Origin: Anaerolinea sp.
GTDB taxonomy: Bacteria; Chloroflexota; Anaerolineae; Anaerolineales; Villigracilaceae
NCBI GenBank assembly: GCA_020723805.1
Contig: DYID01000023.1
Span: 1 to 57,352, forward strand
Reading direction: 5' to 3'
Length of the DNA stretch: 57,352 nucleotides
The position numbers and the translations under genes were made by a program. Numbering within the stretch: position 1 is the stretch's first letter; each line of letters opens with the position of its first letter. Below are positions 14,583 through 22,582 of this stretch, in pieces. The notes beneath the pieces are model-generated. The model was given only the letters and a program-made list of their open reading frames with translations. It did not search any database and was not told where the DNA came from.

Positions 14583-14934
14583 ACATACCTCCAAATTAAT
14601 AATTTTCGCAACCAAACAGGTTGCTTCAACGATCTTCGTGGGAAACACAACGACCGATGAAGCAACCCGTATCAAAGGGTTGCGAGTGGGGCGCAAGGAC
14701 TTACGATCAACCTCCGCTCGAAAAAGGAATCACCTATTCCTTTTCCGAAGGGAGGCGGCGAGCGTCGTGAAGATGCTCGCCGCCTGTTGAGAGGCGCAGC
14801 GCACGAACGCGCTGGTGGAGTTGGGCATCAGCCCCACTCGCAAGTCGCCCAGGCAGAATCGGACTGCCTTGTATGCCACCAGGCGGGCGAAGAATGGGCG
14901 CGTTTTATTCCGCGCCCATGGTGGCGAAGAAGAA
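14583..14934 (-). other. 352-bp gene-free leader packed with hairpins
   Basis: No credible gene. Hairpins in order are GCAACC/GGTTGC (14608-14624), GCAACCC/GGGTTGC (14662-14683), AAAAGGAAT/ATTCCTTTT (14722-14744), AGGCGGCGAGC/GCTCGCCGCCT (14753-14785) and ATGGGCGCG/CGCGCCCAT (14894-14919). GCAACC appears in both strands of the first two, so alternative pairings are possible. Confidence 0.5.
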
Positions 14935-15415: not shown

Positions 15416-15475
15416 AATGTTCCTCCGGGAGTCGAACCCGGCGGTCAGCCTGACCGCGCCCACACGCGAAACATT
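15416..15475 (-). ncRNA. tRNA-like three-way junction A
   Basis: In minus sense: acceptor-like stem AATGTTTC (15475-15468) with GGAACATT (15423-15416), hairpin CGGTCA-GGC-TGACCG (15456-15442), then T-arm CCGGG-TTCGACT-CCCGG (15441-15425). The T-loop matches the tRNA consensus including the closing G-C pair. There is no anticodon arm, so it is not a normal tRNA. It lies in the SSB leader. Confidence 0.5.
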
Positions 15476-15501
15476 GACAATCAAATCAAGGCATGTATAA
15501 T
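15474..15501 (+). promoter_or_regulatory. Near-consensus sigma-70-type promoter
   Basis: TTGACA (15474-15479), 16-bp spacer, TATAAT (15496-15501). It faces the 185-residue plus-strand gene and abuts tRNA-like element A on the other strand. Confidence 0.75.
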
Positions 15502-15514
15502 TTGCGTCAGAAAG

Positions 15515-15558
15515 GGCGAACTGCGTTAAGCGGTGGTCGCCCGCTTTTTTACCCGGTG
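15515..15558 (+). terminator. Leader hairpins, possible attenuator
   Basis: GGGCGA...TCGCCC with an inner ACTGC/GCGGT stem is followed by CGCTTTTTT, then a second hairpin CCCGG-TGCAAG-CCGGG. They lie between the promoter and the ribosome binding site of the plus-strand gene, so may attenuate it. Confidence 0.4.
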
Positions 15559-15598
15559 CAAGCCGGGTTTTCGATTCTTGGAACAGGAGATAAAGAGA

Positions 15599-16156
15599 AT
15601 GAAAAAAGTAAACGAGTGGTTGTGGAAAAACGCCGCTCATCGGGCGGCGGTATGGTTGATCAACGCCGGGCTCACGCAACAGCGTTGGCTTGTTCGGTTT
15701 TTACTTGTCAGTATGCCGTCGTTGGTTTCCTTGGCTGCAAGTCTGGAGGAAATCTATCGTCCCAGCAACAGCATCCTTTGGATTTTCAATCCGAAGGGCG
15801 GCGATGATCTGGATGATTTACTGCATGAAATCAACGAGATCGTTGAACGTTCGCCCACACCGTTTGGACACGACGAATTTGTCATCGTGATCGAGCGGCG
15901 GGCGTCTCTCCCCGACGACGATGACAGGTTGTCCTTTGAACAGGCAGAAGCAACATTGCATCAGCGTTCACTGGTCGAGCAGGCGGTCTTACGCGGTAAC
16001 CGCTGGCACGACTGGAAACGCGGTGACAGCAAGCAGGCATTGCGGGAACAGCTCATGAAGGCGGTTCCAACAAAACACGCGCCTGTCACCTTAATCCGCG
16101 CGGCAGTATTAGGACGCTCCATTGCAAGGCTCGCTGCCAGATTTGCAGGAGGTTGA
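15599..16156 (+). CDS. Hypothetical protein, 185 aa
   Basis: Start at 15599 (M-K-K-V-N-E-W) follows ACAGGAGATAAAGAG. The first 60 residues are helical and hydrophobic with basic ends and could be membrane-associated. A mixed middle region follows, then a basic helical C-terminus (RAAVLGRSIARLAARFAGG). It has its own strong promoter and opposes its neighbours, so it may be an inserted moron-like gene. No family recognised. Confidence 0.65.
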   Translation: MKKVNEWLWKNAAHRAAVWLINAGLTQQRWLVRFLLVSMPSLVSLAASLEEIYRPSNSILWIFNPKGGDDLDDLLHEINEIVERSPTPFGHDEFVIVIERRASLPDDDDRLSFEQAEATLHQRSLVEQAVLRGNRWHDWKRGDSKQALREQLMKAVPTKHAPVTLIRAAVLGRSIARLAARFAGG

Positions 16157-16181
16157 GGGAGGGTTTTGCCCTCCCTCAACC
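16151..16181. terminator. Bidirectional terminator
   Basis: GGTTGAGGGAGGG (16151-16163) and its exact complement (16169-16181), loop TTTTG, between two convergent genes and overlapping the first stop codon. Confidence 0.7.
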
Positions 16182-16182
16182 A

Positions 16183-16410
16183 TTACTCGCCCTGGGCAAA
16201 CTTCTTCGCTTTTCGGCGAAGGTTCAGCCACTCCACGACAGCGTTGCCAATCTCTTCAGGCGAAGCGCCAAGCGCTTGATGCAGTTGGGCAACTTGCGCA
16301 GCGCCTGGCACCTCATCCTGTGAGAGATAGAGTGTACGACCGCCTGGAAGTTCCAATCGGAAACCAGATTGGGGGCGAGGGTCGTCACGGCGGCGGAATG
16401 TTTTTGTCAT
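16183..16410 (-). CDS. Hypothetical protein, 75 aa
   Basis: The start M-T-K-T-F-R-R-R at 16410 follows AGGAGGTTGTG. Basic N-terminus, a short strand pair (FRLELPGGRTLYLS) and a C-terminal helix ending in basic residues. Unrecognised. The 170-bp leader upstream holds several hairpins, including CCGCTCCCCGATA with its complement near 16456-16486. Confidence 0.6.
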   Translation of the reverse strand: MTKTFRRRDDPRPQSGFRLELPGGRTLYLSQDEVPGAAQVAQLHQALGASPEEIGNAVVEWLNLRRKAKKFAQGE

Positions 16411-16583
16411 CACAACCTCCTGATGACCGGGAAGCGCGATGACAACCGCTCCCCGGTAAAGAATATCGGGGAGCGGAATTTTTCCGCCCAGAAAAGGCGG
16501 ATAGCCTTTCCTCTTCCAATCTGAAACATCTTTCAGAGCGGAGGAGGAAAGGGGAGGCGCGGGGTGGACGCCTCCCTGGGGAA

Positions 16584-17537
16584 TCATTGTGTCTTGCCAA
16601 CCGGTCCGCCATGGATCTGTTCACAAATCGTGCGGACGGGGCAATAATCGCAGCGCCAAAGTTCGTCCACATCCGAAAGAACAGGAGGCAGATCGTCTGC
16701 AATTAAAGCAGCAAGTGACCTTTTGAGAAAGGTCATCGCCGCATCGCGGTCCAGCTTGACGGGGCAGCGCACCGGGCTTTTCTCGCCAAAGTACACCACT
16801 TCGGCGCCTGCAAATTTCTCAGGCTTCGACTTCCCGACCATGGCGGCGAGTTTCTCTGCGTTTTTCTCGATCAGCAGGGCGTACAAATTGACCTGCATGA
16901 TATGAGACGAACGCGCCTGGGGAGGGCGGTACTCTCGCAAGATTTCCGACTTGGAACGCAGAATTGCGCCGCATTCGCGGCAAGTCAATCCGTCATCTCC
17001 TTCGTAGGTCTCACCCTCGCACCTCGCGCAGAGGGTGACCTTTTTTCCAAATGGGGGTTTGCTCGTCACCTTGTAGTCGGTAATAAACCAGCCATCCGGT
17101 GTGAGTTCCACCAAATCCGGCGTACCGACCAGTAGGATCGACCTCCCTCGGAAAATAAATTTCCAAGTCAGGGTTTTTTCGCAAATGCCTCCATCGTACC
17201 GGCTGAGCAGATGGTGATAGCCCGTTCCCCGATTCATCCGGTAGAAGGCGGACGGCTTTTCGTAAAAAGGAACTTCCATCTTGAGCCGGGTCTGACGGGG
17301 ACAATTCAGAAGTTCGGTGACCGAAAAACCAATCTTGGCGCCTGCCTCTTCCGCCATTTTTTGGGCGTACTGCGGGTCACGAATCGAATGGATCGCGGCG
17401 TGGATTGCCGCGGGGACCATTGGACAGTCTGGCGCGCCTTTCCTGGCGCAAGCAAGGCACTGATCGAAAGATACGGGCTGGTCAGTGACCTCGCACAGAA
17501 AACCAACCAACCCGGTTTGTGTTGTAGTTGTCGTCAT
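16584..17537 (-). CDS. Fe-S PD-(D/E)XK nuclease (Cas4/AddB-like), 317 aa
   Basis: Nuclease motifs: H108 (GYHH), D141 in GTPDLVE, D154-Y-K156 and Q215 in MQVNLYA. C79 with C296-x2-C299 and C305 matches the four-Cys iron-sulphur arrangement of Cas4 and AddB nucleases. An extra zinc ribbon (CARC..CREC, about 170-189) is inserted after the DYK motif, and another Cys cluster is at the N-terminus. It would process DNA ends for the Rad52-like protein. No CRISPR is present, so it is not a Cas4 in context. Start at 17537 follows TGGAGGTATGT. Confidence 0.8.
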   Translation of the reverse strand: MTTTTTQTGLVGFLCEVTDQPVSFDQCLACARKGAPDCPMVPAAIHAAIHSIRDPQYAQKMAEEAGAKIGFSVTELLNCPRQTRLKMEVPFYEKPSAFYRMNRGTGYHHLLSRYDGGICEKTLTWKFIFRGRSILLVGTPDLVELTPDGWFITDYKVTSKPPFGKKVTLCARCEGETYEGDDGLTCRECGAILRSKSEILREYRPPQARSSHIMQVNLYALLIEKNAEKLAAMVGKSKPEKFAGAEVVYFGEKSPVRCPVKLDRDAAMTFLKRSLAALIADDLPPVLSDVDELWRCDYCPVRTICEQIHGGPVGKTQ

Positions 17538-17635
17538 ACATACCTCCAGAACGAAAGAGAGCGGCACGTCCCAAAGGACGGACCGCCCTCACAAATGTGG
17601 TGCCGCATGTTGGTTCCGCCCCAACTTGCGCCCCT

Positions 17636-17679
17636 CGCATTACTCACGATTTGAACGTGACACCTGCCTACAGGATGCG
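17636..17679 (-). ncRNA. tRNA-like three-way junction C
   Basis: Minus sense: CGCAT (17679-17675) with ATGCG (17640-17636), hairpin CCTG-TAGG-CAGG (17674-17663), T-arm TCACG-TTCAAAT-CGTGA (17660-17644). It lies in the nuclease leader. The outer stem is only 5 bp. Confidence 0.4.
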
Positions 17680-17700
17680 GCGTAGATCATTCAAAAATAC

Positions 17701-17760
17701 TTCCTAAGCCCGTATTTGACATGCGGACTTAGGAAGAGAGAGAAGCGGGTAGCTTCTCTC
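17701..17760. terminator. Two hairpins after the small membrane peptide
   Basis: TTCCTAAG/CTTAGGAA (17701-17735) with an inner CCG..CGG stem, then GAGAGAAGC/GCTTCTCTC (17738-17760). Confidence 0.5.
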
Positions 17761-17767
17761 AGTTCTC

Positions 17768-17866
17768 CTAACCAATAGCCTTGATCGCCAGGAGAGCGAT
17801 CAAGGTGACGGCAAGGAGAACAAATTGCGGGTCTCGAAGGAGACCCTTGACAATGGTGGTGAACAT
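17768..17866 (-). CDS. Small membrane peptide, 32 aa
   Basis: ATG at 17866 follows TAAGGAGGTAGGTG, an excellent ribosome binding site in this element's usual style. The peptide begins M-F-T-T-I-V-K-G and has one hydrophobic segment (FVLLAVTLIALLAIKAI). It follows the GTG-started membrane protein gene by 16 nt. Function unknown. Confidence 0.6.
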   Translation of the reverse strand: MFTTIVKGLLRDPQFVLLAVTLIALLAIKAIG

Positions 17867-17882
17867 CACCTACCTCCTTATG

Positions 17883-18176
17883 TTACCGCTTGCGCGGTGA
17901 TTTATTGCTCATAAGTTCGTCCCGTACCTTTTGGGCAGGAAAGAACCAGAACAACCGAAGGAAGACCAACGCCATCCCAAGAAGCGGTGTGGTATTGGTC
18001 TTGGACAGAAGCGTCATGCTCCCGATGATTAGGAGTACAAGCGCCACGTCCAAAACCTGGTATAGGGCGTACTTGGCGAATGGGGAAAGTGCAAAGACGA
18101 TCTTGCCATCTACAATATCATCCTGGCAATGGGATGACAGGACAATGGCTTTGTTTTGTTTTTTGGGAAACCACAC
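17883..18176 (-). CDS. Two-helix membrane protein, 97 aa, GTG start
   Basis: The start is GTG at 18176 after AGGAGGTATCCC; a longer ATG frame at 18215 has no such site. There is a hydrophobic segment at about residues 40-58 (VLDVALVLLIIGSMTLL) and a second at about 65-80 (LLGMALVFLRLFWFF), ending in a basic tail (NKSPRKR). No family recognised. Confidence 0.6.
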   Translation of the reverse strand: MWFPKKQNKAIVLSSHCQDDIVDGKIVFALSPFAKYALYQVLDVALVLLIIGSMTLLSKTNTTPLLGMALVFLRLFWFFPAQKVRDELMSNKSPRKR

Positions 18177-18202
18177 GGGATACCTCCTTATTTTCAAAGA
18201 AT

Positions 18203-18295
18203 CTTCTCTCGCCATTCAAATCAACCGTGGAACGATTGACTTGAAAAGCGAGAGAAGGCAAGCTCCCGTGCGATCGGCGGGATTGCTTCTCTCGT
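18203..18295 (-). promoter_or_regulatory. Mutually exclusive leader hairpins
   Basis: CGAGAGAAG (18249-18257) can pair with CTTCTCTCG at 18203-18211, enclosing TTCAAATCAA/TTGACTTGAA. It can instead pair with CTTCTCTC near 18286-18293, enclosing TCCCG/CGGGA. The two structures exclude each other, as in an attenuator. Confidence 0.4.
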
Positions 18296-18311
18296 TGATA
18301 TTCGACTGTGA

Positions 18312-18617
18312 TTAATCCGTCAGAACACGCCACTTGCCTCCAGACCGCTCGTACAAAGTTTTGTCGTAGTCGAAGGCGTAACCTTGTTCCTGGGCGTAGT
18401 ACCGCCACTTGGAAATCATCGGGTGAACCAGGTCAAGGACGCCTCCCTCGATGATGTCAAGGAAGGTGGCTGACATGGTTTCGACAACTGCATCCACCTG
18501 TTCGTGGTCCGTTGCTTCGCCCGGCGGAAGCAAGATTTGAACGCACGGGACGCCGGACTGAACTTCGTCGGTATACAAGCTTCCGACCCACACAATGGGA
18601 TAGGTTTTGTTCGCCAT
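18312..18617 (-). CDS. Hypothetical protein, 101 aa (paralogue of next gene)
   Basis: Shares with the 93-residue neighbour a strand-rich start (YPIVWVGSL / YPTIWLGVT), a PPGE motif, and a C-terminal YAQEQGY-x-F..L-x-E followed by a G-x-K element. This indicates a tandem duplication. Start at 18617 follows AAGGAGAGAT. No known domain recognised. Confidence 0.65.
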   Translation of the reverse strand: MANKTYPIVWVGSLYTDEVQSGVPCVQILLPPGEATDHEQVDAVVETMSATFLDIIEGGVLDLVHPMISKWRYYAQEQGYAFDYDKTLYERSGGKWRVLTD

Positions 18618-18625
18618 ATCTCTCC

Positions 18626-18907
18626 TTATTGAGGCGCGACAAGAAACTTTTCGCCGTACTGCTCAAAGAGAGATTCGTTGAACTCAAAAGAGTAACCTTG
18701 TTCCTGAGCGTACTTCATCCAGCGCGCCACGAAAGAGGAAAAGTCGTCCTGGCTTGAAACGTCCCGGATCGGCGTCGGGTACTTTTCCAGTAGAGAAACC
18801 ACCTCATCGCCGTCCTCACCAGGCGGCAGACAAACGGAAACGGACGGAAATACCCGTCCGTTCTCCCAAGTCACTCCAAGCCAGATAGTGGGATAGGCTG
18901 CCATCAT
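18626..18907 (-). CDS. Hypothetical protein, 93 aa (paralogue of previous gene)
   Basis: Paralogue of the 101-residue protein (same PPGE and YAQEQGYSFEFNESLFEQYG pattern). It begins at overlapping ATG codons (18907 or 18904) that overlap the stop of the 46-residue gene, so it is translationally coupled. The pair may form a heterodimer; this is inference. Confidence 0.65.
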   Translation of the reverse strand: MMAAYPTIWLGVTWENGRVFPSVSVCLPPGEDGDEVVSLLEKYPTPIRDVSSQDDFSSFVARWMKYAQEQGYSFEFNESLFEQYGEKFLVAPQ

Positions 18908-19044
18908 CCACCTCGCAACAAGATGAAAACGATCAGCAGGGCGAGAGCGGCGATAACGGCGCGGATGATTTTTTGAGTCTTTCGACGCCGCGCCTGTTGT
19001 TGACGGGCAATCACTTTATCGATGTCGAAATTGGGAATGGGCAT
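18904..19044 (-). CDS. Single-pass small membrane protein, 46 aa
   Basis: ATG at 19044 follows AAGGAGGTATGGCAAA. The N-terminal 25 residues are polar and basic (ARQQQARRRKTQK), followed by one transmembrane helix (AVIAALALLIVFILL). It ends R-G-G-stop overlapping the next start codon. Confidence 0.65.
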   Translation of the reverse strand: MPIPNFDIDKVIARQQQARRRKTQKIIRAVIAALALLIVFILLRGG

Positions 19045-19094
19045 TTTGCCATACCTCCTTTTTTTGATTGTAAAGCGGCTTACAACCGCTTCAA

Positions 19095-19148
19095 TTGCCC
19101 TTGGTGGATTTGCACCACCTGGGTGTTCCCAGCGCTGCGCAAGGGCAA
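19095..19148 (-). ncRNA. tRNA-like three-way junction D
   Basis: Minus sense: perfect 8-bp stem TTGCCCTT/AAGGGCAA (19148-19141 with 19102-19095), GCGCAGCGC linker, hairpin TGGG-AACA-CCCA (19131-19120), T-arm GGTGG-TGCAAAT-CCACC (19119-19103) stacked directly on the outer stem. Confidence 0.5.
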
Positions 19149-19161
19149 GAAAATATGTTGT

Positions 19162-19515
19162 TTACTTCTTCACCGTAAAGCAAATGGTGGAATCATAAAT
19201 AGAACCATTTACACCATCCAGCCTTGTAAATGAGCAGTAAGCGCCGGGTTTTACATTCTTCACACTTACTTTTGCAACAGACGAATTTGCAACATCAACA
19301 GAAGCAATGACTTTTCGACCCTGCTGCGTAACTATATTGATGAAGCCATTTTTGATCATTTCTTCGTTGGGCAAAGAAGCCTTTGCAAAAAGCACTCTTG
19401 TTTTTGAAACGTAAGTCCAAGAATGCTGCGCCATGCTCGACGCCAGTGGCGCAAATGCTGTAGATACGATGGTCACAGCAACTAGCAGCAGAAGAAGAAG
19501 AGATTTTTTGTTCAT
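19162..19515 (-). CDS. Secreted hypothetical protein, 117 aa
   Basis: A clear Sec signal peptide (basic MNKK, then a Leu/Val core to about residue 25, with SMA-Q as a likely cleavage site). The mature part of about 88 residues is strand-rich, with two Cys (YCSF and TICF) that could form a disulphide. Start follows AAAGGAGAAAAAAACACA. Unknown function at the cell surface. Confidence 0.7.
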   Translation of the reverse strand: MNKKSLLLLLLVAVTIVSTAFAPLASSMAQHSWTYVSKTRVLFAKASLPNEEMIKNGFINIVTQQGRKVIASVDVANSSVAKVSVKNVKPGAYCSFTRLDGVNGSIYDSTICFTVKK

Positions 19516-19566
19516 TGTGTTTTTTTCTCCTTTATGGATGGTATGCGCTTCTTAACGAAGCAAAGT

Positions 19567-19608
19567 CGTCTCGCTGGACTTGCACCAGCCATAGCACTTT
19601 GCAAGACG
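19567..19608 (-). ncRNA. tRNA-like three-way junction E
   Basis: Minus sense: CGTCTT/GAGACG outer stem (one G-U pair), GCA-AAG-TGC hairpin, then T-arm GCTGG-TGCAAGT-CCAGC (19589-19573). An alternative outer pairing GCAAAGT/ACTTTGC (19602-19596 with 19566-19560) is also perfect. It lies upstream of the secreted-protein gene. Confidence 0.42.
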
Positions 19609-19632
19609 GACGAAAACCGAGTATTTTCATTG

Positions 19633-19669
19633 CGTACAACTTGCATTGTACGAAGCGAAAGCATATAAT
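19633..19669 (+). promoter_or_regulatory. Recombinase promoter with palindrome over the -35
   Basis: TTGCAT (19641-19646), 17-bp spacer, TATAAT (19664-19669). The palindrome CGTACAA-CTTGCA-TTGTACG (19633-19652) covers the -35 element and is a candidate repressor site. Confidence 0.6.
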
Positions 19670-19756
19670 CAAAGCAAATAACTGCCATTTATGCAGCCAG
19701 GATGATGTCATTCTCGTTGCGTAAAAAACAGAAGACAACGAACAGGAGTAACCCAA

Positions 19757-19849
19757 ATGAGAAGAAAAGTTGACTTGGTGCGAAAACAGGCGGTCAAGAG
19801 CCGTATGATGCCTTACATTCAGGAGGATCTTTATGTCGTCGCGCCGTAA
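19757..19849 (+). CDS. Leader peptide ORF, 30 aa, overlapping the recombinase start
   Basis: ATG at 19757 follows CAGGAGTAACCCAA. The peptide is basic (M-R-R-K-V-D-L-V-R-K...) and its stop lies 14 nt inside the recombinase gene, whose ribosome binding site AGGAGGATC is inside this ORF. It probably couples or tunes recombinase translation. Confidence 0.45.
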   Translation: MRRKVDLVRKQAVKSRMMPYIQEDLYVVAP

Positions 19850-20909
19850 CCCGCGTTTTTATCTCGACGATGTTCTGACCGCGCTGCAAGACAAAGACAT
19901 TCTGCGGGCATTTGGGGATTATATGAACGCCGCCCCACTTCCCTCGCGCCAGAGGGAAGGCGCGTCCGATAAAACCATCCGCGGGTACGTTCACGATGCA
20001 GCCAATTTCTTGCAATGGTGGAAACAAACGGAAGGCGCCGCTTTCACCATGGAAGCCTTGCGCCGCGATCCTTACATGCTGAATAAGAAGGTCATCCAGG
20101 ACTACATCGCATACCTGGAACGAAAATCCGCCATCGCCACCGTCCTGCACAAAGCCGCCGCGCTTCGGGCTTTCGTGAAATTCCTGCAAGCATCCAAAGC
20201 AATCGAACATGACCCCATGCTGGGATTAAGACTGCCACGAAAAGCCGAGGGAGAACCGCGCGGACTGGATGACAAACAGCGCGCCCGCTTCGAGGCGGTT
20301 TTTCAACAACCGTGGCTGGACCGCGCGCCGAAGCGCAAGCGAACAACGGAGGTTGAAGCACGGGTGCGCGAGAACGCAGAACACCAGCTCGTCCGCGACC
20401 GCGCTATCGTATTCCTGATGATGTACGCCGGGCCCCGCGTGGAAGAGGTGTATCAGCTGAACGTCGGGGATGTGGAACTCCGAGAAAAGAGCGGCGCCAT
20501 CCACATCCGCAGGGGCAAAGGCTGGAAGGAACGCAAATCAGCCATCCCACTGCCCGCTCGAAAGCGGCTGGCGGAATGGCTGGAAGTGCGCAAAAAAATT
20601 GGGCTTGAGAATGTCCCGGAGGCACCCTTGTTTGTTACCTTGCGCGGAGAAATAGGCAACCGCCTTTCGATCCGAGCCATTCAGAACATGATCGCAGAAG
20701 CAGGACGCCGCGCAGGAATCAAAGAGCCGGTTACGCCTCACGTTCTTCGCCACACCTGCGCCTACATGCTGCGTAGAGCGGGCGTGGACATCGAGACCCG
20801 CGCCAAAATGCTCGGTCACTCCATCGAAACCGCCCGTAAATACGGCGAGCCAGGGGAAAGTGAAATCGAAAAAGCAGCCTCGCGTTTGGATGATGCGGAA
20901 GCAATATAA
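19833..20909 (+). CDS. Tyrosine recombinase (XerC/D-like), 358 aa
   Basis: All catalytic residues are visible: R202 (AGPRVEE), the Lys hairpin (RRGKGWKERK, about 226-235), H303-V-L-R306-H, H329 (LGHS) and Y337 (RKYGE). An N-terminal SAM-like DNA-binding domain spans about residues 20-120. The enzyme would recombine specific sites, for example for integration, dimer resolution or cassette exchange. Plus-strand orientation with its own promoter separates it from the surrounding array. A strong terminator follows. Confidence 0.92.
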   Translation: MSSRRNPRFYLDDVLTALQDKDILRAFGDYMNAAPLPSRQREGASDKTIRGYVHDAANFLQWWKQTEGAAFTMEALRRDPYMLNKKVIQDYIAYLERKSAIATVLHKAAALRAFVKFLQASKAIEHDPMLGLRLPRKAEGEPRGLDDKQRARFEAVFQQPWLDRAPKRKRTTEVEARVRENAEHQLVRDRAIVFLMMYAGPRVEEVYQLNVGDVELREKSGAIHIRRGKGWKERKSAIPLPARKRLAEWLEVRKKIGLENVPEAPLFVTLRGEIGNRLSIRAIQNMIAEAGRRAGIKEPVTPHVLRHTCAYMLRRAGVDIETRAKMLGHSIETARKYGEPGESEIEKAASRLDDAEAI

Positions 20910-20914
20910 AAAAG

Positions 20915-20939
20915 GATGCCGGTGTCGTACACCGGCATC
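20915..20939. terminator. Terminator after the recombinase
   Basis: GATGCCGGTGT / ACACCGGCATC with loop CGT, directly after the recombinase stop and before the convergent 63-residue gene. Confidence 0.7.
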
Positions 20940-20949
20940 TTGGACACGG

Positions 20950-21141
20950 TTAGTGTCCTGCGTTGCGCAAGTAACCGTTTATGAGGGCGCGCAACTCTGT
21001 TTCAGCAAGCCTCGTCAGATTTGCTAAACCTGCGAGAAAGGACTCTGCTTCACGGCGGGTTTGTTTTGACGCCATTGGCAGGACCTGGCGAATGTGATCT
21101 TCCGTCAGTTGCGCCGAGGCAGGGGAAATGAAAGCAGCCAT
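20950..21141 (-). CDS. Hypothetical helical protein, 63 aa
   Basis: Start at 21141 follows CGGAGGTATGCG. Entirely helical in character (LTEDHIRQVLPMASKQTRR...), with no Cys and no membrane segment. Convergent with the recombinase. No family recognised. Confidence 0.6.
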   Translation of the reverse strand: MAAFISPASAQLTEDHIRQVLPMASKQTRREAESFLAGLANLTRLAETELRALINGYLRNAGH

Positions 21142-21416
21142 CGCATACCTCCGAATGGCTGAGGGAGCGACGGGCTGTTTTCAAAGTCCGCTCCCCCAGC
21201 AATAATAAGGGAAGGGACTTTGGTAAATGGCGTTTATGACGCCACAATACCCAAAAATTTTGTATGTGGAGGCGGTTAGCCAAACCCACATACAAGAAAA
21301 ACGAGGGCGGTTAGCCCAACGCTCGAACCGGCAGGAACTTCGGGCAGGAACACAGCACGCAAATGACGCAGTGTCAATGCGGTCCGTATTTGTGCACAGA
21401 GTATGTCCGGTTGCAG

Positions 21417-21486
21417 TCATCCCGCCAGGAGTCGAACCTGGAACAACCCGCAGCGCTCACCGCAAAAGCGCCGCTGTTCGGGATGA
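21417..21486 (-). ncRNA. tRNA-like three-way junction B
   Basis: Minus sense: 8-bp acceptor TCATCCCG/CGGGATGA (21486-21479 with 21424-21417), hairpin GCGGCGC/GCGCTGC with an 11-nt loop (21474-21450), T-arm CCAGG-TTCGACT-CCTGG (21441-21425) stacked on the acceptor. 70 nt in total. No anticodon arm and no encoded CCA. Confidence 0.55.
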
Positions 21487-21634
21487 TACAGGCGGCGCGG
21501 GGTGGCGCCGCCAACAAACGCCTCGTCTGGCTATCGCCTCCTCTCGGAAACTCGCCATAGGAACGAACGAGGCGTGATGCGCCTTCGTTCGAGGCGAGGA
21601 GGAGAGGAGAAGAAACGACGAGGAGTTTGGAAAG

Positions 21635-21687
21635 CCTCCAGCAGGCCGCGAACCTGCGGCGCCGCATCTGAAAGACCGGCGTGGAGG
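21635..21687 (-). ncRNA. tRNA-like three-way junction F
   Basis: Minus sense: CCTCCA/TGGAGG outer stem (21687-21682 with 21640-21635), hairpin CGCCG/CGGCG (21681-21660), T-arm GCAGG-TTCGCGG-CCTGC (21657-21641). The loop lacks the conserved A58 equivalent. It lies 11 nt after the OB-fold gene. Confidence 0.4.
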
Positions 21688-21697
21688 GCAGACAAAA

Positions 21698-22582
21698 TCA
21701 GTTATAAACAATCACGGCATTCGCCAAAACATGCAGACTTTCCTGCTGGGCAGAAATTTCGTCCAACGCTTCAGGATTGATGACGCGCCCCATCATATCA
21801 ATGACATCGCTCGATCCAAGGGAGACCAGCGCGTCCCGCAGGGTCACACGGCGTCCCTGGTCGCGGAACTCGCCGCGCACGCGAATACGCTGCTTGGTCT
21901 TGACCTTGACCTCGATGCCTTCCACCGTCTTGCCGTCGGGGAACAGGACGTTGACGTAATGCGGCTGACGATAGGGCTTGCCGAAGTTGCCCTTTTTGTC
22001 GTCACGCGCAGGAGTGTATTCATCGTACACCGCAATCCTGACAAACTGATCCACCGCCTTGCCGCGCGGATACTCCCATTTCTTGGCAACAATGCCTTCG
22101 AGATCGGCTAGATTCACAATTTCACCCTGACTCTTTTTCCCAGCAGCCAGCGGCTCGATCTTGAGCGCGTTCAATACGGCGTTCTGGCGGCGGAATTGGA
22201 TGGCGCGCCAGGCATCCAAGTCTTCGGGAGGGATGTGCTTGTCGAAAAAGTCATCCCTGCCTGCCACATTCAAAAATCGGCGCAGAGTCTCTTCGTAATT
22301 TGCATGGGTAATATACCCGTCCACACGCACCACAATACCCGGCTGCAACGTCACCAGCTTGCCGCCGATCGTGCCGTCAGGGATGCGAATTGTCACATAA
22401 CAAGCATAAACATCCTCCGTTTCCTGCACGTCTCCCCGCAGGGAGACGCGCAGGCGGAGAAAGACGTCGCGGTTTCGACCCCACAATTTCACGATCGTTC
22501 CCGCGACCGTCGCAGCATTCAAATCGAATTGTTCATTGACGCGGACGCCTGCGGCGCCGCCGTTTGAAGTTTTTTTCTTCAT
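21698..22582 (-). CDS. Double OB-fold, SSB-like protein, 294 aa
   Basis: Two OB-like halves are suggested. The first (about 18-110) is FDLNAATVAGTIVKLWGRNR.. ending ..VVRVDGYITHANYEE. The second (about 155-265) is NLADLEGIVAKKWEYPRG.. with ..IRVRGEFRDQGRRVTLRD. A basic N-terminus precedes them. It is adjacent to the Rad52-like gene, so an ssDNA-binding role in annealing is likely but not proven. Start at 22582 follows TTTGGAGGCTATATC. Confidence 0.55.
   Translation of the reverse strand: MKKKTSNGGAAGVRVNEQFDLNAATVAGTIVKLWGRNRDVFLRLRVSLRGDVQETEDVYACYVTIRIPDGTIGGKLVTLQPGIVVRVDGYITHANYEETLRRFLNVAGRDDFFDKHIPPEDLDAWRAIQFRRQNAVLNALKIEPLAAGKKSQGEIVNLADLEGIVAKKWEYPRGKAVDQFVRIAVYDEYTPARDDKKGNFGKPYRQPHYVNVLFPDGKTVEGIEVKVKTKQRIRVRGEFRDQGRRVTLRDALVSLGSSDVIDMMGRVINPEALDEISAQQESLHVLANAVIVYN

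Follow-up and report, generated by a model that had tools for sequence, protein, structure and literature searches.

Reduced tRNA-like elements in the gene leaders of a contig that reads as a bacterial mobile element

The DNA analyzed here (57,352 bases; hereafter, the window) corresponds to a complete contig (C7) from the genome of an Anaerolinea sp., whose assembly comprises 54 contigs and 3.69 Mb. By gene content, the contig reads as a mobile element: it carries genes for a tyrosine integrase, a DnaA N-terminal domain, ParA-like proteins, a beta-clamp domain, RadC, and SSB, together with genes for a PD-(D/E)XK nuclease, an RNase_T-family exonuclease, a methylase, and pilus/secretion proteins (T2SSE, T2SSF, and a prepilin peptidase). 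One further protein (23649–22771) matched two PHROGs exonuclease families and no Pfam family; we refer to it as “Rad52-like,” a nickname given in this analysis and not a family match. The subject of this work is a set of transfer RNA (tRNA)–like elements, E0 to E5, located in leaders of genes of this contig (Table 1). ARAGORN called no tRNA or transfer-messenger RNA (tmRNA) genes in the window; the host’s own tmRNA is on contig C53.

An initial, sequence-only reading of the window described six minus-strand elements (E1 to E6), each with a T-arm and an outer stem, as one family. We scanned both strands of the window for a 5–base pair (bp) stem with a maximum of one G-U pair around the loop T[TG]C[AG]ANT. 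Seven stems were found, and a G-C closing pair together with an outer stem of at least 5 bp left exactly E1 to E5, all of which lie on the minus strand, in the region from 15.4 to 21.5 kb. In 100 dinucleotide shuffles of the window, the mean number of such matches was 0.08 and the maximum was 2, compared to 5 observed. The sixth element, E6, turned out not to carry a T-arm, and E0, which has counterparts in four relatives, had been missed. Because the loop pattern was derived from the elements themselves, relatives provide a stronger test. When unrelated contigs (1,524,629 bases) were scanned for the same loop with a stricter outer stem, four matches were obtained, three of them ordinary tRNAs as judged by eye.

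The plan common to E1 to E5 is a 5-bp stem with G-C closure, a 7-nucleotide (nt) T-type loop, and an adjoining outer stem. The outer stems are mostly 6 to 8 bp long and, with the T-stem added, amount to mostly 11 to 13 bp. In E0, E1, E3, E4, and E5 (outer stems of 6 to 8 bp), the acceptor-like stem is stacked on the 5-bp T-stem, which is followed by the 7-nt T-loop with the G53-C61 pair; in E2, the outer stem is 5 bp with three unpaired bases, giving a total of only 10 bp with a 3-nt gap. The interiors vary. E1 contains a D-like hairpin with GG in the loop followed by a second hairpin, E3 contains the hairpins GCG-CAG-CGC and TGGG-AACA-CCCA, and the E0 counterparts in four relatives (G016, G192, G740, and G730) have only the 10-nt linker AAAGGAATCA between a 7-bp acceptor stem and the T-arm. 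The three-way junction initially proposed as a shared plan therefore does not extend to E1 or to these E0 counterparts. The proposed lack of an anticodon arm held: no such arm with a 7-nt loop is present in the folds of E0 to E5 (relatives were judged by reading only).

The tRNA-like form is the lowest-energy fold of isolated E1, E2, and E5 and of the two E0 counterparts that were folded. The lowest-energy fold of the window’s E0 is also tRNA-like, with one pair moved from the acceptor to the T-stem. In tRNA, GG occupies positions 18 and 19, and T-loops in which G replaces U55 are known from tRNAs with no role in translation. By reading, GG is present in the linker or hairpin loop of the elements whose T-loop begins with TTC, and the TGC-loop elements E3, E4, and G278_E4 carry AG; G278_E3, also with a TGC loop, has no AG and breaks this pattern, and GG is likely to occur by chance in G-rich linkers.

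Table 1. Positions of the tRNA-like elements, neighboring leader features, and counterparts of E0.
Feature	Sequence	Position	Strand	Structure and setting
E0, tRNA-like	window	14845–14890	−	acceptor TCGCCCG/TGGGCGA; T-arm GGCAG-TCCGATT-CTGCC; 15-nt linker; after SSB gene
E1	window	15416–15475	−	acceptor AATGTTTC/GGAACATT; T-arm CCGGG-TTCGACT-CCCGG; leader of SSB gene (15342–14935)
E2	window	17636–17679	−	5-bp outer stem; hairpin CCTG-TAGG-CAGG; T-arm TCACG-TTCAAAT-CGTGA; leader of PD-(D/E)XK nuclease gene
E3	window	19095–19148	−	acceptor TTGCCCTT/AAGGGCAA; T-arm GGTGG-TGCAAAT-CCACC
E4	window	19567–19608	−	acceptor CGTCTT/GAGACG, then ACT; hairpin GCA-AAG-TGC; T-arm GCTGG-TGCAAGT-CCAGC
E5	window	21417–21486	−	acceptor TCATCCCG/CGGGATGA, then CT; one variable hairpin; T-arm CCAGG-TTCGACT-CCTGG
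Domain M	window	21490–21594	−	structured RNA between E6 and E5; pseudoknot hairpin, then hairpin GGCGGCGC/GCGCCGCC
E6	window	21635–21687	−	outer stem CCTCCA/TGGAGG; inner hairpin; hairpin with 3-nt loop; downstream of gene 22582–21698
Bait gene	window	21698–22582	−	294 amino acids; upstream of E6-M-E5; used for finding relatives
E0 counterpart	L052	1534–1574	+	
E0 counterpart	L034	14622–14662	+	
E0 counterpart	L317	3157–3197	−	
E0 counterpart	L319	10611–10651	+	

The gene used as bait encodes a product with no Pfam or PHROGs match at E ≤ 0.001. It had matches at E ≤ 0.001 in 5 of 41 genomes and in 18 of 301 genomes of the order, and at E ≤ 1e-12 in 6 of 396 genomes of the class and 10 of 152 genomes of the family; the search sets overlap and include the window’s own genome. 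Together, they yielded 21 loci outside the window at E ≤ 1e-12. Looser scans and reading showed that 17 of these 21 loci have a gene-strand T-arm accompanied by an outer stem of some kind. For five loci that were fetched after the scan had been made, we allowed C at loop position 2, any base at the last loop position, and longer linkers. Four of the five (G740, G730, G433, and G690, the last with an outer stem of 5 bp) have at least one gene-strand element fitting the first pattern; G674 has none. The widened scan produced two opposite-strand matches (L312 −13520 and L313 −888) and none in L314, L315, and L318. No relative was found in plasmids, phages, or viral contigs when two proteins were searched against several collections, a third protein against phages, and one DNA region against plasmids.

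A stricter scan (loop T[TGC]C[AG]ANN, outer stem of at least 6 bp) was applied to 23 loci totaling 357,764 bases: the 21 relatives’ loci, the window, and a second piece of G016 (L052) already known to hold an element. Apart from L052, only the piece holding the bait gene was covered for each locus; other pieces were covered by the looser scans alone. There were 23 matches, 22 of them on the strand of the bait gene, compared to a mean of 0.4 and a maximum of 2 in 40 rounds of shuffling. The window holds six of the matches, including the sole one on the wrong strand (+21588, in domain M). Nine of the relatives’ 21 loci contain strict matches; G041 is excluded from this number, since the loop of its match, TTCGAGG, is of the E6 kind. 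When model R1 was run on the window’s own genome, 17 matches were obtained among the best 150 of 844 candidates: 3 on this contig, 11 at ARAGORN tRNA or tmRNA loci, and 3 without such a call. Because scoring was limited to the best 150 of these candidates and the list lacks E0, E2, and E3, this result does not prove absence outside this element type. The pattern GGAGGCGATAGCCAG matched 78 loci and at least 118 loci in large collections and is too short to discriminate; among the matches listed, none had both flanking motifs of domain M.

In relatives, E5, E1, and E0 retain the same neighboring genes and lie on the gene strand. Counterparts of E1 are found in the same four genomes as those of E0, which in G016 and G192 also follow the SSB gene; an E4-like element is present in G278 (L038 −18646–18689). 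The initial suggestion that the elements may have a recombination role is disfavored by this constancy, and integron attC-like or other recombination sites were rejected on the same grounds.

We next consider whether pairing is maintained while stem sequences change, as the sequence-only reading had claimed. For nine E5 elements (alignment A10), the 8-bp acceptor stem and the 5-bp T-stem are paired in 99.1% of 116 cells; versions of the pairing slid out of register as a control were 31 to 58% paired. Both sides have changed in 6 of the 13 pairs, a level reached by 0 of 500 shuffles. These are counts and not probabilities, since some rows came from a pairing scan and kinship alone can exceed shuffles; in addition, it is not certain that the rows from G278 and G027 represent the same position. 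Because of its ATCGTCC loop and its lack of domain M, G041 was excluded from the E5 alignments. RNAalifold predicted the E5 acceptor and T-arm unaided from five domain-M loci aligned over the full stretch 3′ of the bait gene (A7, from which G278 was left out), and likewise those of E1 from three and from five sequences. Few pairs of E1 change on both sides. The pair count for E0 was omitted because MAFFT misaligned the window’s E0 with its counterparts. Overall, compensatory change supports a conserved tRNA-like plan for the E5 type and, on the basis of fewer sequences, for E1; for E2, the claim found no support in relatives.

The same data bear on the idea that the elements are remains of tRNA genes captured at integration sites. 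Two regions contain a partial tRNA-Met–like sequence (L038 −9653 and L054 −1571, by reading), possibly an attachment site, as such capture predicts. Decay would break pairs, however, and both stems of E5 show covariation in relatives, where the element keeps its place next to the same gene, which makes this origin very improbable.

The 3′ ends of the elements were compared with those of host tRNAs. The host genome contains 46 tRNA-family matches, 45 of them above the cut-off. Among 37 host tRNA genes read with ARAGORN, 30 lack CCA and 7 end in CCA; by reading, 15 have N73-C-T and 10 have N73-C-A, 25 in all. The E5 elements end in A-C-T in eight of nine cases and in A-C-A in one, and such an ending is also found where acceptor letters differ (G027). 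The A of this ending pairs with the preceding U in seven of nine rows.

The stacked acceptor/T-stem of mostly 11 to 13 bp and the host-like 3′ end of E5 make processing by RNase P and/or RNase Z the best single reading. A review gives 12 bp from the T-loop to the 5′ end as a postulated measure of RNase P and describes cleavage of acceptor/T-stem-loop model substrates by RNase P RNA (PMC11143913); in most of our elements, 11 to 13 bp separate the T-loop from the predicted cleavage site. We therefore propose, tentatively and as something short of probable, that E0 to E5 are reduced tRNA mimics recognized by host RNase P and/or RNase Z that mark cut or protection sites in the leaders of a few genes of a single kind of mobile element. 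In each, the acceptor stem would stack on the T-arm, and a short linker or one or two small hairpins would stand in for the D and anticodon arms. RNase P from the 5′ side and/or RNase Z from the 3′ side may bind this acceptor/T-arm body and cut or cap the transcript. A cut would define where the downstream leader begins or where the upstream message stops, and this could adjust how stable the messages of replication and recombination genes are and how strongly these genes are expressed.

Several observations weigh against this proposal. No element that was read encodes CCA, and CCA-less phage precursors were processed better with CCA, according to PMC11143913. E0 and E1 do not have A-C-T (E0 types have C-C-T or C-T-T, and E1 has T-T-T). 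On the 5′ side, the acceptor strand is rich in pyrimidines and frequently begins with C, while most of the 37 host tRNAs start with G. Other folds are better for E3 (by 1.2 kcal/mol) and E4 (by 0.2 kcal/mol), with T-arm probabilities of 0.07 and 0.21, respectively, and E3 and E4 also prefer other folds when flanking sequence is included. At least 5 of the 23 strict matches (E4, L008, L038 −18180, L052, and L317 −3787) use a stem other than the described acceptor. Four of the 21 relatives’ loci (G029, G674, G041, and G107:C53) contain no such element, although the G107:C53 contig ends inside the leader, and E2 has no counterpart upstream of the same gene in four relatives. Last, in G107, G157:C214, and G164, the weak outer stem of the element before the Rad52-like gene contains the stop codon of the upstream gene, and a 5′ cut there would therefore remove the stop codon.

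The last point also concerns the role of the elements in polycistronic messages. The sequence-only reading had placed all of them between a stop codon and the next ribosome-binding site of one operon and had suggested that they punctuate the polycistronic transcript. The placement is incorrect for E4, which is flanked by a minus-strand gene on one side and by the plus-strand integrase gene on the other, and for E1, which lies between the SSB gene and a plus-strand open reading frame of 207 amino acids that has a perfect promoter-like site. E4 is located 37 nt after a weak sigma-70-like site (9/12 match, minus strand 19672–19645; 7 promoter-like sites of this kind occur in the region compared to 5.3 in shuffles) and may thus sit near a 5′ end and not between cistrons. 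Given these divergent borders and the stop codons inside outer stems, punctuation between cistrons is not supported as the function of all elements. That the set, with its tRNA-type elbow and host-like 3′ ends, forms a general punctuation and processing code before replication and recombination genes of a bacterial mobile element is a doubtful, if possible, extension of the proposal.

Proximity to stop codons and 5′ ends would also be expected if the elements simply protect RNA ends, i.e., if stable structures there slow exonucleases and the likeness to tRNA is incidental. In relatives, the elements before the Rad52-like gene are located at a stop codon, E6 of the window begins ~10 nt after one, and stable hairpins are abundant, with 28 terminator-like sites in the region compared to 13.7 in shuffles. 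A plain hairpin, however, requires neither the conserved T-loop letters nor the G53-C61 pair, both of which end protection leaves unexplained, and we regard it as unlikely.

The leader that contains E5 also harbors E6 and domain M. The E6 loop is TTCGCGG in the window and TTCATGG, CTCGCGG, TTCGTGA, or TTCACGA in relatives. Positions 54 and 60 of the loop pair (U-G, C-G, or U-A), as do positions 55 and 59 (U-G), so that E6 is a longer hairpin with a 3-nt loop, which is how RNAalifold closes it, and a T-arm is ruled out. E6 is conserved ~10 to 220 nt 3′ of the bait-gene stop codon in G000, G016, G132, G192 (two loci), G041, G278, G740, and G730. Thus, E6 shares a leader with E5 but is not a member of the tRNA-like family.

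Domain M was seen only in G000, G016, G132, G192, G740, and G730. The loop ACGCC of its pseudoknot hairpin pairs with a downstream GGCGT, with the variants ACACC/GGTGT and ACATC/GATGT in other sequences; across seven sequences, 97.1% of the cells of this helix are paired, and two of five pairs have changed on both sides. The “further pair types” measure for domain M was reached by 498 of 500 shuffles. A proposed 3-bp helix failed (46.7% paired). Structure elsewhere includes a hairpin after E1 that covaries in three relatives. A switch in the E5 counterpart of G016, in which the acceptor would compete with an internal ATCCCGCA/TGCGGGAT hairpin, was rejected: the aligned acceptor strand lies further upstream, and the internal copy therefore belongs to the variable region.

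Further leader features were noted. A long-range helix, TTGCGAGTGGGGC/GCCCCACTCGCAA, closes the E0 leader (~14843–14680, minus strand); by reading, its pairs covary in G192, and a small reading frame lies inside it in both G016 and G192. Leaders of the window (~21320–21270 and 14240–14220, minus strand) and of relatives repeatedly contain hairpins of the form GGGCTAACCGCCC. In leaders of the Rad52-like gene (L010, L037, L040 to L046, L312, and L320), the tRNA-like element is followed by a shared stretch resembling CACCTTRACAACTGAA; the window’s own Rad52-like leader has a version of this stretch and no tRNA-like element.

With so much other structured RNA in the leaders, the T-arm could serve that structure, which counts against tRNA mimicry and points to an alternative in which the elements are parts of larger regulatory leader RNAs and the T-loop, as a general-purpose RNA module, docks within the leader or binds a protein or ligand, with no tRNA enzyme involved. 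The domain M pseudoknot, the long-range helix of the E0 leader, and the hairpin after E1 agree with such a role. So do the acceptor letters of E5, CATCCCG/CGGGATG, which are nearly fixed among relatives of family f1 (they differ in G278), as if the sequence is read too. The spacing of acceptor and T-stem with a short or no gap and the host-like A-C-T of E5, in contrast, favor mimicry, and the part between acceptor and T-arm varies from 10 to ~100 nt, which is not expected of one ligand pocket. We consider a regulatory leader RNA of this kind conceivable, though on balance rather improbable. A known riboswitch or ribozyme was rejected, as no Rfam match at the gathering level was obtained for the window or for seven relatives’ loci; a lax Rfam search gave six matches, all far under their cut-offs. 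Domain M and the nearby structured leaders are further RNAs without an Rfam match.

Returning to tRNA mimicry, if the proposal is true, a mobile element ties its gene expression to the tRNA machinery of its host. A family spread over several leaders of one mobile element and kept by compensatory change would offer natural test material for how RNase P and RNase Z choose substrates that lack CCA and have incomplete D and anticodon arms. As far as we know, the tRNA mimics described in bacterial messages are isolated cases, some of them listed in PMC11143913. Titles and beginnings of abstracts, a sample from which subscription journals were mostly absent, revealed no such family of tRNA-like leader elements.

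The closest known structures differ from E0 to E5 in several respects. No element of the window reaches the gathering threshold of the tRNA family (RF00005) or is called by ARAGORN, which called no genes in 40 loci of relatives either. The tRNA-like domain of tmRNA consists of an acceptor and a T-arm with no anticodon arm, and the E0 counterparts, with their stemless linker containing GG, resemble it, although no tmRNA is called in the window. A pattern derived from E4 and its G278 counterpart matched six viral contigs (L271 to L276), where the matching RNAs are tRNA-Leu–like by reading. These RNAs have TGCAAAT T-loops and are not called by ARAGORN; five of the six loci hold ARAGORN tRNA genes. 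E4 has the same AGTGCTATG before a T-arm with the loop TGCAARU; the phage RNAs, however, have a tRNA-Leu–like 5′ half (by reading), while E4 is 42 nt long and lies in a gene leader. An E0-type pattern had no matches in viral contigs.

Metazoan mascRNA and menRNA (RF01684) are tRNA-like RNAs that RNase P and RNase Z release from a longer transcript. They share with our elements the acceptor, the T-arm, and the reduced inner arms; E1 reaches only 20.1 bits in this family compared to a cut-off of 42.5 (E = 3), and here, several elements occur per mobile element, in bacterial gene leaders. Non-tRNA substrates of bacterial RNase P listed in PMC11143913 include C4 antisense RNA, M3 RNA, T4 gene 32, riboswitches, mRNAs, and phage RNAs. 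In that list, they are separate cases, whereas here, a family with tRNA-type T-loops is found, for which cutting is predicted. The proposed code is comparable to the tRNA punctuation of mitochondrial transcripts, with mimics in place of tRNAs.

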